33,839 bases of DNA from Chloroflexota bacterium. Its GTDB lineage: Bacteria > Chloroflexota > Ktedonobacteria > Ktedonobacterales > Ktedonobacteraceae. Below are positions 11,311 through 33,453 of this stretch, piece by piece. The notes under the pieces are model-generated. The model worked only from the letters and a program-made list of their open reading frames with translations, was not told where the DNA came from and did no database searches. The translations under genes and the position numbers were made by a program. The stretch spans positions 1 through 33,839 of the forward strand of contig CADDZH010000055.1 in the NCBI GenBank assembly GCA_902812455.1, given 5' to 3'. Position 1 is the first letter of the stretch. Each line of letters starts with the position of its first letter.

Positions 11311-12306
11311 ATGAGGGATGAAGGTCGAACACCTTCAGGTATCGTGATAAGCGCATATCATTTTTCACCTGAATCACAAGCCATATTGCGCAAAGCGGCA
11401 GGAACAGAGGTCATATGCGCCGCAAGCCCGGAGGACTTCCTGGCCCACTTGCCTGAAGCAGAGATTGCCTGCTCGTACTGGATGCCTGATAATTGGAGGG
11501 AGCTGGCGCCGAACTTGCGCTGGCTTCAAAGCTCAGGGGCAGGCATCGACAGGCTACAATCAACAGGCATCCTCGATGCAGATAGCGGGGTCATAGTCAC
11601 CACAGCAACGGGAATTCACCCCGTATCTATCAGCGAATACGTGATATGCAGTATGCTGATGTTCAACCGCAACTGGCCGCAGATGGTACGCTTGCAGGAT
11701 CGCCATACCTGGCCGCGCAGCGGAAGCTGGTATAACCTGAGGGCGCGCGAGCTTGAAGGCCAGACCATAGGCATTGTCGGGTTAGGACATATCGGGCGAA
11801 GGATTGCGCAACTTGCCCGGGCCTTTGGTATGCACGTTCTTGCCACACGGCGCTCGGCGCGCCCAGGCGACAGCGATCCAGATGTTGACCGGCTCTATTC
11901 GATGGAGCAATTGCACGAGATGCTTCCCCTTTGCGATTACGTCGTGCTTGCCGTGCCATTAACAGCACAAACGGAACACCTCATTGGCGAGAAGGAACTG
12001 CGAGCGATGAAGCCGGATACATACTTAGTGAATATCGCCCGGGGAGGCATCATTGATCAAAATGCCCTGATACAGGCTCTTCAGGAACACTGGATTGCAG
12101 GCGCCGGTCTCGATGTCGCCTCGCCGGAGCCGCTGCCGCCAGATAGCCCGCTCTACTCCTTGTCCAACGTGATTCTGACCCCTCATATTGCAGGAGACAG
12201 TGAACGCTATGATCAGCGCCTCACAGCGCTTTTTGCTGATAACCTGCGGCGTTACCGCACAGGTCAACCCCTGCGCAATCGCTATGATCCGGCACGTGGA
12301 TACTAA
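11311..12306 (+). CDS. D-2-hydroxyacid dehydrogenase family protein
   Basis: 331 residues of the NAD-dependent D-isomer 2-hydroxyacid dehydrogenase family. It has the cofactor-binding motif GLGHIGR (157-163), the substrate Arg in NIARGG (R244), the Glu in SPEPLPP (about 273) and the catalytic His in TPHIAG (H292). It most resembles glyoxylate/hydroxypyruvate-reductase-like members lacking an ACT regulatory domain. An upstream in-frame GTG at 11251 would add 20 residues, but AGAGGA eight bases before the ATG at 11311 makes that start far better. It runs 24 bases ahead of the DUF3090 gene and probably shares its transcript and terminator. Substrate not determinable. Confidence 0.9.
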   Translation: MRDEGRTPSGIVISAYHFSPESQAILRKAAGTEVICAASPEDFLAHLPEAEIACSYWMPDNWRELAPNLRWLQSSGAGIDRLQSTGILDADSGVIVTTATGIHPVSISEYVICSMLMFNRNWPQMVRLQDRHTWPRSGSWYNLRARELEGQTIGIVGLGHIGRRIAQLARAFGMHVLATRRSARPGDSDPDVDRLYSMEQLHEMLPLCDYVVLAVPLTAQTEHLIGEKELRAMKPDTYLVNIARGGIIDQNALIQALQEHWIAGAGLDVASPEPLPPDSPLYSLSNVILTPHIAGDSERYDQRLTALFADNLRRYRTGQPLRNRYDPARGY

Positions 12307-14039: not shown

Positions 14040-14152
14040 ACGCTCCAGGGCACCCGCAAGGGTTGCCCCTACCCTCGACACCTCGGCTTGCCACACGTCC
14101 AGAGTAGGGACAGGGCTCCGCCTCTGGCCACCCCTGTCCTGGCTCGGGCCCC
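14040..14152. repeat. GC-rich palindromic repeat cluster
   Basis: The cluster contains a GGGCACCC...GGGTTGCCC stem ending in CCCCTAC (14066-14072). It also has a GGACAGGG/CCCTGTCC stem (14108-14115 with 14132-14139). The CCCCTAC end is shared by repeats at 17280, 24289, 25260, 26384 and 26427. It lies downstream of the DegV gene and might also help end that transcript. Confidence 0.55.
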
Positions 14153-17262: not shown

Positions 17263-17286
17263 GGGCGCAATTCATTGCGCCCCTAC
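17263..17286. repeat. Palindromic repeat ending in CCCCTAC
   Basis: GGGCGCAA (17263-17270) and TTGCGCCC (17275-17282) form a perfect 8-bp stem with a 4-base loop, continued by the CCCCTAC end seen in other repeats of this window. It lies in the gap between the divergent asp23 and rpmB genes, probably in the asp23 leader. Confidence 0.6.
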
Positions 17287-19392: not shown

Positions 19393-19567
19393 AGACAGAC
19401 CCTCCGGGGGAAGAAATGCAATAATACTATATACCATAATACCACATTTCTCCCTCTATGAATGGGTCATACGGAGTCACCTTGATCAGGAAATGCAAAA
19501 TATAGACGCAAGGCTTCAGATATGGTATTGTTGTGTACGGAACCGGAGTCAGCACAAGGAGGCGCAA

Positions 19568-21151
19568 ATGGCTACCCTTGAAGGTGATGAAAAGCTTGTG
19601 TCACAGCGGCGCCTGGCGATCCAGCTTCCCCGCTTGCGCTGGACGCACATCCTGGCGATTAGCATCTTCTGGCTTGCTTTGAACTTTCACTGGGCTGCTC
19701 TTGGTATTATCATCCTTCCCAGCCAGGTTTTCAAGATTGTGGGGCCTTTCTACAAGGGCAATGCCCTGGCCTACGTGCTCGTTCCAGGCGCATTTGTCGC
19801 ACTCTTCGCCAATCCCCTTTTTGGCATGCTAAGCGATCGCACTGGAGGATGGCTGGCGGCCTGGGGACGCCGCCGCCCATATATCTTCCTGGGCACGCTC
19901 GTCAATGTGGGCGGCTTGCTCTGGATGGCGGCAGCCCGCGACATCCCTTCGCTGGCAATCGCTTATGTCATTGTGCAGTTCTCCAATAATGCCGCTTCTG
20001 CCCCTTTTCATGCCCTGCTGCCCGATATTGTCCCGGTTGAGCAGCGCGGCCTCACCTCCGGCGTCATGGGCCTCCTTTCTATTGCGGGCAATATTGGAGG
20101 CGTCGTTGTTGCCGGCATTTTCGTCAATTCCTCCTTGCCCGTCGCGGCTTACTACCAGGGTGTGTGGGTGACCTATGGCATTATCATTGCTGTACTCGTT
20201 GCCCTAATGCTGGTTACGATCATAACCGTGCGAGAACGCCGGGGTATATCCGCGCAAATGGCGAACCTGGCCGCCGGGAACCCGGCCTCCACAAGGGAGG
20301 CCACTACATTTCAACCCGCATCAGGAGGGGAAAATGTAGTGCCACCCCCAAGGGGTGGCAGCTCGCGTGCCGGGCCGCTAATTTCGCGGAGAACCGTGAT
20401 GACCGTCGCATGGACGCTGGTAGCAGTCGCTATTGTGTGGGGGATCATGGCGCTGTGGAATGTGTTGCATATTGCGCACCTGCAGATCAGCGGCGACGTG
20501 CAGCAGGTGATCCTGGAAGTGATTGCGACCATTGGTATCTTGCGGCTCTTTGATTTCAATCCGCGGCGCGACCCCGATTTCGCCTGGGTGTTCCTGACCC
20601 GCCTGGTAATGATGCTGGGCATCTATCTCGTGGAGGATTTCCTGCAATTCTACATGCGCGATGCAGTGAGAGTAGCGCATCCAGAGCAGCAGACGACGAA
20701 CTTTATCATCATTCTCTCATTTACCAGCCTGATCAGTGCCTTTGGAGTGGGCTGGCTCTCGGATCGCTTCGGGCGCAAGCGCATGGTCTACGTCTCCGGT
20801 GGCTTTATGGCCCTGGTTGGCCTCATCTTCATCATCACGCAGTCTCTGCCTATTGTGCTGGCGGCTGGTGCCATCTTCGGCCTGGGCTACGGCGCGTATA
20901 TTAGCGTGGACTGGGCTCTGGTGGCCGATGTGCTGCCTTCGCATCGTGACTATGCGCGCGATATGGGAGTCTGGAACATCTCGCTCTCGCTGCCGCAGGT
21001 GGTTGCGCCCATCATGGGTGGCCCGCTCATCGACAGCTTTACCCGCGCAGGCAATCCCGTGCTCGGCTACCAGTTGCTCTTCGCAATGGCCATTGCCTAT
21101 TGCCTGATTGGAACGGTAACCGTGCGCTTTATCCGGGGGGTGAAGAAATAA
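19568..21151 (+). CDS. MFS transporter, sugar (SUT/GPH-like) type, with a repeat-encoded loop
   Basis: 527 residues with about twelve membrane segments. The first cytoplasmic loop has DRTGGWLAAWGRRRPYIF, the GRRRP signature of sucrose and glycoside transporters; the matching loop of the second half has SDRFGRKRM. The substrate is probably a glycoside or disaccharide, but is unproven. The central cytoplasmic loop is enlarged. Residues 239 to about 269, rich in Pro, Gly and Ser, are encoded by a copy of a palindromic repeat that also occurs between genes at 32151-32236. The ATG at 19568 follows AAGGAGG; the upstream ATG at 19493 is not supported. The stop is three bases from that of the converging methyltransferase gene. 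Confidence 0.88.
   Translation: MATLEGDEKLVSQRRLAIQLPRLRWTHILAISIFWLALNFHWAALGIIILPSQVFKIVGPFYKGNALAYVLVPGAFVALFANPLFGMLSDRTGGWLAAWGRRRPYIFLGTLVNVGGLLWMAAARDIPSLAIAYVIVQFSNNAASAPFHALLPDIVPVEQRGLTSGVMGLLSIAGNIGGVVVAGIFVNSSLPVAAYYQGVWVTYGIIIAVLVALMLVTIITVRERRGISAQMANLAAGNPASTREATTFQPASGGENVVPPPRGGSSRAGPLISRRTVMTVAWTLVAVAIVWGIMALWNVLHIAHLQISGDVQQVILEVIATIGILRLFDFNPRRDPDFAWVFLTRLVMMLGIYLVEDFLQFYMRDAVRVAHPEQQTTNFIIILSFTSLISAFGVGWLSDRFGRKRMVYVSGGFMALVGLIFIITQSLPIVLAAGAIFGLGYGAYISVDWALVADVLPSHRDYARDMGVWNISLSLPQVVAPIMGGPLIDSFTRAGNPVLGYQLLFAMAIAYCLIGTVTVRFIRGVKK
20284..20374. repeat. Palindromic repeat inside the MFS transporter gene
   Basis: The first 28 bases match 32151-32178 with a single mismatch, starting GGCCTCCACAAGGGAGG. 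Later parts match as well: ATGTAG followed by GTGCCA, a small CC...GG hairpin with TGGCA, and a GTGCCRGG end. The outer ends form inverted partners (CACTACATTT with AAATGTAGTG, 20302-20311 with 20331-20341). The copy is read through in frame. Confidence 0.85.
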
Positions 21152-24224: not shown

Positions 24225-24480
24225 ATCAATAGGGGACGACGGGCGGGCGACCATAAAGGCCCACCACTCCGCTCCACAACCGCCCTCGCCCCTACTATGA
24301 TACGAATCGGCCTGCGGAGCCGTCACCATAGGAGGGGCGACCATAAAGGACTTTGTTGGCGAATGCGATGGGGAGGCGAATCGGCGCCGCAAGCAGGGCG
24401 GGGACAAGCCACCGCCCCTCCTATGGTGACGGCGGCTTTGGCCGAGGCGTACCATAGGAGGGTCGCCCCCATAGGCGTTA
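24225..24480. repeat. Cluster of nested palindromic repeats
   Basis: A perfect 21-bp inverted repeat pairs 24319-24339 with 24413-24433 (core CACCATAGGAGGGGCG), 73 bases apart. GGGCGACCATAAAGG occurs directly repeated at 24245-24259 and 24335-24349. A further ACCATAGGAGGG copy lies at about 24450. There is no convincing gene on either strand from 24220 to 24657; the short frames here are built from repeats. Confidence 0.75.
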
Positions 24481-24496
24481 ACATAAGATGCCAAAT

Positions 24497-24565
24497 ATGT
24501 CATCCTGAGCGAAGCGAAGGATCTCTCGATCGGCATCAGATGCTTCGCTTCGCTCAGCATGACAT
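24497..24565. repeat. CGAAGCGAAG-type palindromic element, copy 1
   Basis: It starts ATGTCATCCTGAGCGAAGCG and ends with the near-inverse CGCTTCGCTCAGCATGACAT, around a CTCGATCGGCA centre. An inverted copy with the same arms lies at 27803-27873. A degenerate relative follows at about 24590-24676 and overlaps the last codons of the GNAT gene. Confidence 0.85.
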
Positions 24566-26240: not shown

Positions 26241-26433
26241 GGTAATGAGGGTGAAGGAGTGGTGTGCTGGGGATGGACGAGGACAAGCACAAGGCCCCCT
26301 CCCGTCCTTTTCTCCACCCCTTGTCCCTACAGGTACGATCCAGGTCCTCATTACCCAATTTGATCGGAAAAGTTCATAATCGGCCCCTACAGATAGCCCG
26401 ATTATTTTATTCATGTTCATAATCGGCCCCTAC
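26241..26433. repeat. Composite repeat block between enolase and the hydrolase gene
   Basis: Ten-base arms GGTAATGAGG (26241-26250) and CCTCATTACC (26346-26355) are inverted. Between them lies a minus-strand copy of the GTAGGGGCAAGG repeat (26279-26332). Then comes the repeat shared with the window start (26339-26375). GTTCATAATCGGCCCCTAC is perfectly repeated at 26372-26390 and 26415-26433. No gene is visible in 26165-26435. Confidence 0.72.
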
Positions 26434-27800: not shown

Positions 27801-27802
27801 TC

Positions 27803-27873
27803 ATGTCATGCTGAGCGAAGCGAAGCATCCGCTGCCGATCGAGAGAGGTCCTTCGCTTCGCTCAGGATGACAT
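27803..27873. repeat. CGAAGCGAAG-type palindromic element, copy 2
   Basis: This is the inverted copy of the element at 24497-24565: arms ATGTCATGCTGAGCGAAGCG and the near-complement, two bases longer in the middle. It lies between the enolase promoter and its start, so it would form a stable hairpin in the enolase leader. Confidence 0.85.
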
Positions 27874-27933
27874 GGTGTAACTGTTCAACCTGTCAAGGAT
27901 TGTTCCTCACAATTGAACCTTGCCTGTGGAGGT

Positions 27934-30492: not shown

Positions 30493-32079
30493 ATGCCTAC
30501 GCTAAAGCCCACTGGGGCTGCGCCAGGGCAATTCCAACTACCGCTAATCCACGCCGATCGCCTCATCATTGCTTCAAATCGTGGCCCCGTCGAATATTAT
30601 TTGAGCCATGATGGGAGGCTGAAACAGCGTCGAGGCTCCGGTGGTATGGTGACTGCCCTCACCGATGCAAGCAATCATATGGAAGTGACCTGGGTGGCTA
30701 TGGCTATGACCGAAGCCGACCGCCTGGCAATCAAAGAGGCCCAGCAGAATGGAGGCTTGCTCGAAACCCCACTGAATGGACACAACATGCAACTTCGTTA
30801 CGTGGTTATCTCCAAGAATGCCTATCGCAAGCACTACGAAAAGATCAGCAATGAGGTGCTGTGGTTCCTACAGCATTACCTGTATGATGCATCGGAGGAT
30901 ACGGCTGCTGCCCGCCGCATTCAGGATGCCTGGACCAATGGGTATTTTGTGGCGAACCGCGCGATTGCCGACGCGGTAAACGCAGAGATCGACCGGGAGT
31001 CTTCCTCAGCGGTGGTCATGCTGCATGATTACCATCTCTATCTTGTTTCAGCCATGATTCGCGAAGCTCATCCCGGTATCGTTATGCAGCAGTTTATCCA
31101 CATTCCCTGGCCGGATATTCGCTGCTGGCATTTCCTGCCCAGCAACATTACACATGCTATCTATAGCGGTTTGGTGGGCAATGATATTATCGGCTTTCAA
31201 ACCCAGCGCGATGCTCGTAACTTCATGGAAGGCGCTCGCACGCTGCTGGATGGAGCCTTCGTTGATTTTGAAGAGGGCGCGATCTGGTGGCAGGGCCGCC
31301 AAATCAAAGTCCGCGCCTATCCCATTTCGATCTCTGTCACTAGCGAGCGCCGTACCGTGGCGAGCGCAGCCGGGCAGCGAGCCGCTGCAAAAATTGAGCC
31401 GCTGCTGGCCGAAAAAACCATTATGCGGGTAGATCGCATCGATCCCACGAAAAACATTGTGCGCGGCTTCCAGGCCTACAAGCGGCTGCTCGAAGAGCAT
31501 CCCGAACTGCATGGCAAAGTTACCTTCCTGGCTTTCCTCGTCCCTTCGCGCCAGGCGCTCCTTAAATATAAGCGCTATCAAGCCGAGGTAGAAAAAATTA
31601 TCGATGAGATCAATAAGGAATTTGGTACGAAAACCTGGACGCCTGTTCAGACCTTTTACGGCAATGACCGCACGCGAGCGCTGGCAGCCATGCAGTATTA
31701 CGATGTGCTGCTCGTCAATCCTATCATTGACGGCATGAACCTGGTTGTCAAAGAAGGCGCTGTTGTCAATAAGCGCAATGGGGTGCTGGTGCTTTCGCGC
31801 ACCGTAGGCGCGTTCCAGCAATTGGGCAAGTTCTCTATTCCTACCTCGCCCACCGATATCGAGGAAACAGCCGAAGCGCTCTACAAAGCCCTCACGCTGC
31901 CGGAAGATGAGAGGGCCGACAAGGCAGAACACGCCCGGGAGAATGTGGAGCGCAACAACTTGAGTATGTGGCTCACACGGCAGATACACGATATCAACGA
32001 GGTGCTTGCTCAAGTTGAGCAGGAGCGTGCCGCTCGCGAGAAAGAACCTGCCAGACCCCTGGCGGCAGAGGCAGTCTGA
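30493..32079 (+). CDS. otsA: Trehalose-6-phosphate synthase-type GT20 glycosyltransferase
   Basis: 528 residues with GT20 landmarks: SNRGPVEYY (28-36), GSGGMVTAL (48-56), HDYHLYLVSAMIREAHPG, FIHIPWPD, GFQTQRDARNF, and DGMNLVVKEG, which binds the sugar nucleotide. The phosphate-binding motif reads VDRIDPTKNIVRG instead of the RLDYSKGI of E. coli OtsA. The enzyme joins a nucleotide-activated glucose to an acceptor phosphate, classically glucose-6-phosphate; the changed motif leaves room for a related acceptor such as glycerol-3-phosphate. No trehalose-phosphatase (otsB) is in the window. An AGGAT about seven bases upstream is the ribosome-binding site. Confidence 0.85.
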   Translation: MPTLKPTGAAPGQFQLPLIHADRLIIASNRGPVEYYLSHDGRLKQRRGSGGMVTALTDASNHMEVTWVAMAMTEADRLAIKEAQQNGGLLETPLNGHNMQLRYVVISKNAYRKHYEKISNEVLWFLQHYLYDASEDTAAARRIQDAWTNGYFVANRAIADAVNAEIDRESSSAVVMLHDYHLYLVSAMIREAHPGIVMQQFIHIPWPDIRCWHFLPSNITHAIYSGLVGNDIIGFQTQRDARNFMEGARTLLDGAFVDFEEGAIWWQGRQIKVRAYPISISVTSERRTVASAAGQRAAAKIEPLLAEKTIMRVDRIDPTKNIVRGFQAYKRLLEEHPELHGKVTFLAFLVPSRQALLKYKRYQAEVEKIIDEINKEFGTKTWTPVQTFYGNDRTRALAAMQYYDVLLVNPIIDGMNLVVKEGAVVNKRNGVLVLSRTVGAFQQLGKFSIPTSPTDIEETAEALYKALTLPEDERADKAEHARENVERNNLSMWLTRQIHDINEVLAQVEQERAAREKEPARPLAAEAV

Positions 32080-32150
32080 CGGTAGGCCAGAGGCAAGCCA
32101 CGCTTTGAGCAATGCAGCCGTTTTCCACTTCATTTTGTGTAGTAAAGCCT

Positions 32151-32236
32151 GGCCTCCACAAGGGAGGTCACTACATTTCCCCTCAAGCCGTGAGATGTAG
32201 AGTGCCAATCCATTGGCATCCCTTGTGGGTGCCAGG
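32151..32236. repeat. Palindromic repeat, intergenic copy of the MFS-embedded element
   Basis: It shares 27 of 28 leading bases with 20284-20311, then an ATGTAG...GTGCCA segment, a TGCCAATCCATTGGCA hairpin and a GTGCCAGG end. It lies in the 198-base gap between the GT20 gene and the M20 peptidase gene, where nothing else is visible. Confidence 0.85.
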
Positions 32237-32277: not shown

Positions 32278-33453
32278 ATGCAAACGTATGCGCAAGAGTA
32301 TGTATCGAGGTTGTGGACATACCAGGAGGAGCAGCTTCAGCGGCTCGAACTGCTTGTGAATATTGACTCGGGGACGGGGCAGGTGGGGGGAGTGCGCCAG
32401 ATTATGGCCTATTTGAAGCAGTGGTTGAGCGAGCTGGGCTTTTTTGTAACGTTGCAGGAAGCCGAGGGCTTTGGGCCAAATCTCGTGGCGCGGAGATCAG
32501 GGAAGGGGCGCTTACGGGTGCTGCTCGTGGGGCATGTCGATACGGTATATGGCCCTGAGATCGCGTCCACGAGGCCATTCTGTATTGAGCGGGGCATCGC
32601 CCGGGGGCCGGGTGTGATCGATATGAAGTCGGGCGTGTTGATGGCCATATACGTTGCGCGAGCGCTGTTGGAGTCGGGCTTTGAGGAATTTGGAGAGCTG
32701 TATTTGTTGTTTAATAATGATGAGGAAGTTGGCTCTCCTGGCAGTACGCCGTTGTTGCGTGAGATTGCTCAGCAGATCGATGTGGCCCTGGTGCTGGAAC
32801 CATCGCGGGGAGCGGAGTTTATTACAAAGGCGCGCAAAGGAGGGGACAAGTATGTGCTGACCGTGCAAGGCTCTCCCGCGCATTCCGGGGTTGAGCCGCA
32901 CAAAGGGCGCTCGGCGGTGATTGAACTGGCGCATAAGATCATCGCCATTGATCACCTGCATACGCTTTTCCCGGGTGTGACCTTCAACGTGACGCGCCTC
33001 AGCAGCAGCGAGCCGCTCAATGTTGTGCCAGATATGGCGAGGTGTCATATTTCTGTACGCGCTCATACCCAGAAGCAACTCGATATGGCGGCTGAGGCTA
33101 TGGAGACAATTACAGCGGGCAGTAACGTTCCTGGCACGCAGACAAGCCTGGTACGCAATCGCGGGCGCACGCCCTATGAAACGACGCCGGAGATCCTGCA
33201 CCTGGTGGAAATAGCCAGGATCGAAGGGCAGGCGCTCGGTATCTCCATAGTAGCCGAAAACAAGGGTGGCCTCTCAGATGCGAACGTACTGGTCGAAGCA
33301 GGGGTACCAACCCTAGATAGTCTCGGCCCTGTTGGTGGTGGCATGCATGATCTTAACCGGGAATTTTTGCGTGTTGATTCGCTTCCCCTCAGGGGAGCGT
33401 TGCTGGCCGGATTGATTCATCACCTGTGCCTGTCAGAATTGACAGGGAGATAA
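32278..33453 (+). CDS. M20 family metallopeptidase (carboxypeptidase G2-like)
   Basis: 391 residues. The two-zinc site is visible in order: H86 and D88 (GHVDTVYG), bridging D115 (GVIDMKSG), general base E149 and E150 (NNDEEVGS), E174 (LEPS), and H357 (GGMHDLN). A dimerisation domain sits between about residues 185 and 295. Members hydrolyse peptide or amide bonds, glutamate carboxypeptidase being the best-known case. There is no signal peptide. The ribosome-binding site is weak. The substrate is not predictable. Confidence 0.92.
   Translation: MQTYAQEYVSRLWTYQEEQLQRLELLVNIDSGTGQVGGVRQIMAYLKQWLSELGFFVTLQEAEGFGPNLVARRSGKGRLRVLLVGHVDTVYGPEIASTRPFCIERGIARGPGVIDMKSGVLMAIYVARALLESGFEEFGELYLLFNNDEEVGSPGSTPLLREIAQQIDVALVLEPSRGAEFITKARKGGDKYVLTVQGSPAHSGVEPHKGRSAVIELAHKIIAIDHLHTLFPGVTFNVTRLSSSEPLNVVPDMARCHISVRAHTQKQLDMAAEAMETITAGSNVPGTQTSLVRNRGRTPYETTPEILHLVEIARIEGQALGISIVAENKGGLSDANVLVEAGVPTLDSLGPVGGGMHDLNREFLRVDSLPLRGALLAGLIHHLCLSELTGR

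Follow-up and report, generated by a model that had tools for sequence, protein, structure and literature searches.

The window under study (positions 1–33,839 of contig CADDZH010000055.1, from a Chloroflexota bacterium of the family Ktedonobacteraceae) carries a gene for a transporter of the major facilitator superfamily (MFS), whose coding sequence contains a palindromic repeat read in frame (Table 1). The repeat, at nt 20284–20360, is a tail-to-tail doublet of hairpins of the repetitive extragenic palindrome (REP) type, each tagged with GTAG; it is REPIN-like (REP doublet forming hairpins) and lies in the region coding for the loop between transmembrane helices 6 and 7 (TM6-TM7). A sister doublet is present at an intergenic site of the same window.

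Table 1. Coordinates of the transporter gene and of the GTAG-tagged repeats in the window
Feature	Position (nt)	Strand	Remarks
MFS transporter gene	19568..21151	+	527 aa; PF07690, E 1.1e-25
In-frame REP doublet, approximate full extent	20281..20378	+	encodes PASTREATTFQPASGGENVVPPPRGGSSRAGP; outer ends CCCGGC / GCCGGG complementary
REP unit 1, GTAGTGGCCTCCCTTGTGGAGGCC	20284..20307	-	GTAG tag and perfect 7-bp stem
Spacer, 28 nt	20308..20335	.	complementary ends ATTT / AAAT
REP unit 2, GTAGTGCCACCCCCAAGGGGTGGCA	20336..20360	+	GTAG tag and perfect 9-bp stem
Intergenic sister doublet	32150..32218	.	units 32150–32174 (-) and 32197–32218 (+), 22-nt spacer
Second-family GTAG-REP unit, GTAGGGGCGCAATGAATTGCGCCC	17263..17286	-	close variant of the second-family REP; family also in G001, G002 and G029
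Weaker GTAG hairpin, GTAGGGGCAACCCTTGCGGGTGCCC	14048..14072	-	one mismatch

The in-frame doublet and its intergenic sister

The first in-frame ATG of the transporter open reading frame (ORF) is at nt 19493, thus giving a product of 552 aa (ORF 19493–21151), although translation would more likely start at nt 19568, because AGGAGG stands upstream of this codon. The ORF continues unbroken through the repeat: two of the six frames of the 98-nt element are open and the transporter uses one of them. With the start at 19568 the repeat encodes residues 239–269, and on both points, an in-frame palindrome leaving the frame open and the residues that it contributes, the first-pass annotation proved right. 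The two units are inverted, with GTAG at the inner end of each, the tag of unit 2 being read as GTA-GTG (Val-Val) in the transporter frame, and the added peptide is rich in Gly, Pro, Ser and Thr. When folded as a single strand, the doublet forms two hairpins and a central stem, with a z-score of -4.1 that none of 200 shuffled sequences equalled. Its boundaries are approximate, since no same-species empty site was found.

The identity of 27 out of 28 bases previously noticed between nt 20284–20311 and nt 32151–32178 was confirmed; without gaps the match can be followed over 32 nt, at 94%. A 26-base core, searched with up to three mismatches, occurs twice in the window, both times exactly, against 0.00 matches expected from 100 dinucleotide shuffles. 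The first-pass annotation had regarded nt 32151–32236 as a copy of its 91-base repeat. One REP unit and the architecture are indeed common to the two sites: unit 32150–32174 is nearly identical to unit 1, its own stem having one mismatch, and GTAG is found at the inner end of all four units of the two doublets. The hairpin of unit 32197–32218 is unlike that of unit 2 in the transporter, and the spacers differ as well, so that the intergenic site is a sister doublet and not a copy of all 91 bases. It folds with a z-score of -6.8 (0/200 shuffles equal) and occupies the gap that runs from the end of a GT20 glycosyltransferase gene (nt 32079) to the start of a gene for an M20 peptidase (nt 32278); a 386-aa minus-strand ORF (nt 31048–32208) overlapping it was presumed spurious.

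The TM6-TM7 loop is cytoplasmic in the general topology of MFS transporters. In an AlphaFold2 prediction on 44 sequences the window transporter reached a mean predicted local distance difference test score (pLDDT) of 82, with block means of 45–57 for loop residues 231–270, and the loop is therefore predicted to be disordered.

Among the best 120 of 1527 homologues, identity to the window transporter was 67–86% over the matched part, and all rows naming a source referred to Ktedonobacteraceae or Chloroflexi. The DNA of 28 distinct homologous loci (26 of the 27 retrieved by the transporter genome scan, plus L054 and L085) was available for comparison. The element was found in none of them, nor did its core occur, with up to five mismatches, anywhere in their 439,504 bases; the loop between fixed anchors measured 20–50 residues in these loci versus 55 in the window transporter. 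At the protein level, four pieces of the insert of 8–9 residues (up to two substitutions) were searched in the 140 other homologous proteins taken from the best-match lists, and none was retrieved among the matches listed. In the resulting set of 141 proteins, window transporter included, the loop has a median of 35 residues and ranges from 16 to 190; the window transporter, with 48, is one of 16 having at least that length. The TM6-TM7 loop is thus hypervariable and not a constant background. The earlier expectation that homologues lack about 30 residues was correct as to the sequence itself, but what is seen is a net excess over the median of about 13 residues instead of a clean gap of 30.

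Three of these proteins (P0003, P0004 and P0005) have loops of 144–190 residues in which a unit containing NDGEADQHVVTPLVG is repeated in tandem, 4, 5 and 7 times respectively, which represents a tandem expansion within the same transporter loop. Other palindromes were observed outside the window: at L001, a near-perfect one of 45 nt starts at base 11561, 15 nt past the point where the match to the gene of the MFS relative ends, and is possibly a terminator; at L005 (5840–5879) and L007 (5631–5670), from two Ktedonobacter genomes, the palindrome CACTACATGGGACAGAGG...CCTCTGTCCCATGTAGTG is present with like flanks.

REP families and a candidate mobiliser in related genomes

The family to which the window doublets belong (first family) was searched in related genomes. 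Core patterns gave no match in viral contigs. BLAST against the genomes of seven relatives retrieved 45 matches (best E 2.8e-5) in that of the Ktedonobacteraceae metagenome-assembled genome (MAG) bin_36, hereafter G007; of the other six, three were without any match and three had one or two, none better than E 0.2. The pattern ATGTAGNGCCNCCC-(3 to 5)-GGGNGGC was found exactly 43 times in G007 and not at all in the other 28 genomes, and a reversed control pattern gave no match. The first-pass annotation had anticipated an element dispersed over many sites. In one related genome, G007, this is borne out by the 43 exact matches of the general pattern, while the window itself has two doublets in its 33.8 kb. 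The exact 22-base core matched nowhere in the genome contigs, and the copy number of the family is thus based on one relative and a looser pattern. The annotation had likewise named beforehand two outcomes that would speak against the repeat, namely distant homologues with the same loop and a match recurring nowhere else; the distant homologues examined have other loop sequences, and the match recurs in G007.

With the looser pattern, 53 distinct G007 units were collected sharing one body, of which AAATGTA(G/A)GGCC...GGCCGG is the commonest form, a conservation that is partly built in because the units were found by pattern. The tag is GTAG in 42 and GTAA in 11, the only two forms that the search pattern admitted. 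Among the units of fixed length (n = 50), Watson-Crick pairing was seen at the first inner stem position in 45 (A-T in 39, C-G in 6) and at the second in 48 (C-G in 46, T-A in 2); the inner stem of the G007 units varies mostly by paired changes.

A candidate mobiliser was identified in the same relative. On contig C395 of G007, an ORF coding for a 160-aa Y1 transposase (L138:729–1211, minus strand) has as its best NCBIfam model REP_Tyr_transpos, the REP-associated tyrosine transposase (RAYT), with 76.4 bits, the IS200 model scoring 21.9. First-family units flank this RAYT-like ORF in inverted orientation, at 708–734 and 1344, and a third lies at 629. The tag of the REP at L138:708–734 provides the stop codon of the gene (ATG TAA). 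Y1_Tnp domains were detected in 23 of the 29 genomes. RAYT-driven transposition of the first family is plausible on the arrangement of these sequences.

A second GTAG-REP family connects the transporter loop to other relatives. Its REP, GTAGGGGCGCAATTCATTGCGCCC, is present in 3 of 47 genomes (G001, G002 and G029) and translates exactly into VGAQFIAP, a peptide that, in this or close forms, was found at the protein level in ten of the transporter homologues; all 12 matches (up to two substitutions) fall in the TM6-TM7 loop. Shuffled versions of VGAQFIAP gave, at the same tolerance, means of 0.085 matches in the loop and 0.095 outside (largest in-loop number, 8, in 200 shuffles). Apart from AQFIAPL, no further open reading of the second REP turned up in the 141 proteins; AQFIAPL overlaps VGAQFIAP and, with two substitutions allowed, has one match also outside the loop (P0067). 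The carriers stand together in the tree order, mixed with non-carriers, in a tree without support values, and neighbouring members of one part of it keep the peptide, some in decayed form. By eye, VGAQFIAP occupies a different point of the loop in P0033 than in P0022, P0027 and P0036, and it occurs twice in P0022 and P0038, thus making more than one event, or a shift, likely. Elsewhere in the tree the loop has other repeat-like contents (QGSPLH, TPLVGVRP and VGVEP, at the protein level), and among contents of this kind VGAGLAP alone has a counterpart in REP DNA, namely a unit at locus L160 (G029). Of 1240 GTAG occurrences, 84 (6.8%) had a stem next to them, compared with 0.3–1.2% for nine other tags, a rate that is no independent test since most loci were chosen for holding the second family. 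The protein evidence that several REP families may have been captured independently by this one transporter loop is good, and at the DNA level the window transporter is the case covered. It is for such repeated capture into a single loop that the case is of interest.

REP units were also found inside other genes of the relatives, a unit being counted as in-gene when it lies in an ORF (read stop to stop) of 330 nt or more and has 90 nt or more of that ORF on each side. By this rule, 35 of the 90 distinct second-family sites of G001, G002, G029 and the window are inside an ORF, at 29 loci, 13 of which were covered by the Pfam search. Left uncounted were six of the ten ORFs in the first Pfam set together with L284, L285 and L300, having no Pfam family; L264, L302 and L306, where a family was found but the unit has three mismatches; and L258, whose unit is N-terminal of the conserved domain. 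For first-family ORFs, the Pfam search left out L144 and one of the two L108 ORFs.

One comparison is offered by an acetyltransferase, in whose linker REP copies are present (three in G001, one in G002, one in G029) and are missing from the 25 other aligned orthologues, 18 of which have a linker of 26–31 residues. Its Pfam scores are 20.9 and 20.2 bits versus a cut-off of 20.7, and the assignment therefore relies on the orthologue set. The G001 linker (L172) holds three REP-derived tandem copies (VGAQFIAPSNID...). In the PurN protein of G002 the corresponding loop has 62 residues versus 43–46 in 24 of 25 orthologues, and 42 residues separate the aligned blocks versus 26 in the solved homologue 2ywr; the remaining orthologue, that of G029, has 57, possibly reflecting a decayed insert. 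In the PurL of G002 a two-mismatch unit has its place between the PurS and FGAR-AT linker domains, and the match in the PDB starts beyond this unit. A one-mismatch unit was found in a GT28-type glycosyltransferase of G029, whose solved homologue 5xvm is four residues shorter at that point. As for the first family, one of 54 distinct G007 sites is in frame, in an Eco57I-type methyltransferase. In the early cases the tag was read as GTA (Val), giving VGAQFIAP in the MFS transporter, the acetyltransferase and PurN, and VGPPLAGG in the methyltransferase. A fixed reading frame of this kind was rejected, as PurL, the glycosyltransferase and the ORF at L285 (G001, G002 and G029) are read otherwise.

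Origin of the in-frame doublet

We consider it highly probable (roughly 0.87) that a REPIN-like GTAG-REP doublet was inserted in that part of the MFS gene which codes for the TM6-TM7 loop, predicted to be disordered. The doublet was perhaps moved by a RAYT that worked in trans on DNA in single-stranded form, and part of the older loop may have been lost around the insertion. It would have survived because it caused no frame shift, brought no stop in the frame used and made a flexible addition to a loop that varies freely. The transporter with the insert would presumably be made and working, the insert being a tolerated passenger and probably not selected.

Several observations weigh against this reading or its generality. 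The insertion is deduced from clearly diverged homologues and not from a same-species allele. By exact pattern the first family is present in one of 29 genomes, and G001 and G002, which have the closest transporters among the searched genomes, are without it; these two MAGs, of 3.2 and 4.4 Mb, look incomplete. The score of the RAYT-like ORF is under the curated cut-off of 80, and the three REPs beside it are tagged GTAA, not GTAG. At the other Y1-transposase loci (n = 20) no GTAG hairpin pair and four single hairpins were seen, in a scan made for the GTAG tag. Finally, 7 of the 25 REP-free acetyltransferase linkers have 51–60 residues of unrelated sequence, so that this linker varies without REPs too.

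Alternatively, the doublet might stem from recombination between copies of the REP, or from a template switch from one copy to another, an in-gene REP being then a by-product of hairpin-prone repeats and not of RAYT-catalysed transposition. The two window doublets, having one unit in common and a different spacer and second hairpin, would suit such an origin, as would the three near-identical tandem copies in the G001 acetyltransferase linker, which have the pattern of replication slippage. Still, we hold it unlikely, since nothing is missing from the transporter doublet and its two tags face inward, which agrees with the mobile unit proposed for REPINs (PMC3116915), and G007 has a RAYT-like gene flanked by family members. 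Co-option of the doublet is more improbable still; hairpins in the mRNA, or the loop that it adds, would then tune synthesis, folding or regulation of the transporter. Both in-gene stems are perfect, and VGAQFIAP persists in neighbouring homologues of one tree part, decayed in some of them; yet a recent insertion would equally have intact stems, and the loop differs between neighbouring homologues.

That the matching DNA is a coincidence, or low-complexity coding sequence, can be given very little credit. Pro/Gly/Ser-rich loops of GC-rich genes can indeed look palindromic, but the number of matches expected by shuffling, the fold of the transporter doublet and a G007 family with paired stem changes all argue against chance. 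Least credible of all, to the point of being negligible, is an ancestral functional loop of the transporter lost by the other lineages: no supporting point was found for it, the 28 loci with DNA and the 140 other homologous proteins are free of the element, and the loop contents differ by lineage.

Returning to insertion of a mobile doublet, a wider view may be advanced tentatively, at slightly less than even odds: in Ktedonobacteraceae, RAYT-borne GTAG-REPs could be a standing source of loops and linkers, several families having entered one TM6-TM7 loop independently and REPs having also lengthened linkers of PurN, PurL, the acetyltransferase, the glycosyltransferase and the methyltransferase, with their peptides kept, decayed, duplicated in tandem and made ordinary protein. 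The window doublet and its parallels extend the in-gene REP phenomenon to the Ktedonobacteraceae, where two REP families, several host genes and a likely RAYT are involved. They also provide a comparative system for selfish palindromes turning into protein, in which a single loop is combined with more than one REP family and, among orthologues, with states that are fresh, decayed or amplified in tandem. The definition of REPs is unchanged by the finding.

Relation to known repeats and other repeats of the window

The first-pass annotation knew of no established description for the family; repeats of this kind, the GTAG-REPs, have been described. GTAG-REPs and their tail-to-tail dimers were defined by Di Nocera et al. 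2013 (PMC3733652), in the available sections of which they are described as having a terminal GTAG beside a stem-loop (degenerate at positions 2–3 in some families), a stem of 6–13 bp, a short loop, and dimer spacers of 20–100 bp, with ends that are sometimes complementary. Dispersal in high copy number, complementary stem changes between copies and frequent dimers, in HH or TT (tail-to-tail) arrangement, also mark the class. The same sections report REPs within ORFs, more than half of them as dimers or groups, encoding 20–30 residues, and unlike REPs occupying about the same position in the recB gene of two Xanthomonas species. The window doublets have in common with them the tag, the stem, the short loop, the tail-to-tail dimer and, for the transporter doublet, the location in an ORF; the stems of the transporter doublet, of 7 and 9 bp, are within the described range, and so are the spacers of both doublets, of 28 and 22 nt. 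The window unit was placed as a GTAG-REP by description, not by alignment with the 24 consensus families published there. Going by these sections, single and dimeric REPs within genes have already been published for other bacteria (PMC3733652), and the transporter case is a well-supported new example. A text search of that article did not find the name Ktedonobacter, and no title on REPs of Ktedonobacteria was among the matches listed for the open-licence literature, which did include one on Coxiella MITEs and protein evolution (PMC5896051).

The REPIN/RAYT systems, judged from the parts available of PMC3116915 and PMC2817692, are similar in the foldable inverted REP doublet and in the RAYT-like gene between inverted REPs in G007. 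They differ in that the published repeats are extragenic, whereas one doublet is here coding and the host is Ktedonobacteraceae-like, and in the GTAA tags beside the G007 gene; a gammaproteobacterial origin has been proposed (PMC2817692). The parallel with Rickettsia palindromic elements (RPEs) drawn by the first-pass annotation applies to behaviour, as in both cases a palindromic repeat stays in frame in genes, and not to family. In the available text of PMC3733652 (section 15) the intragenic RPE-4 and RPE-6 are treated as CGTC repeats, whereas the window units are tagged GTAG and belong to another phylum, the likeness being by description. The window units do not carry the CGTC tag.

We take Thermomicrobium roseum to be in the phylum of the window organism. 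Its GTAG-23 REPs, as they appear in the available part of PMC3733652, would be GTAG-REPs of the same phylum, likened here by tag alone.

Among the remaining repeats of the window, the second-family unit (Table 1) has as neighbours a gene of the Asp23 family and an ORF that, by eye, is rpmB-like. The weaker GTAG hairpin may be a chance product, since other one-mismatch hairpins occur in the window. When all 256 tags are ranked by how often a perfect stem follows them in the window, GTAG comes second, with 4 of 187 occurrences, too few to be weighed. Hairpins of another repeat (ATGTCATCCTGAGCGAAGCGAAGGATC and its inverse) are located 3.3 kb apart at nt 24497–24565 and 27802–27874, their arms being 93% and 96% complementary. 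A 37-nt direct repeat with 89% identity, ending in TTTGATCGGAAAAGTT, is found at nt 1–37 and 26338–26374, and a 53-nt imperfect inverted repeat (81%), with arms 73 nt apart and recurring ACCATAGGAGGG motifs, at nt 24287–24465.
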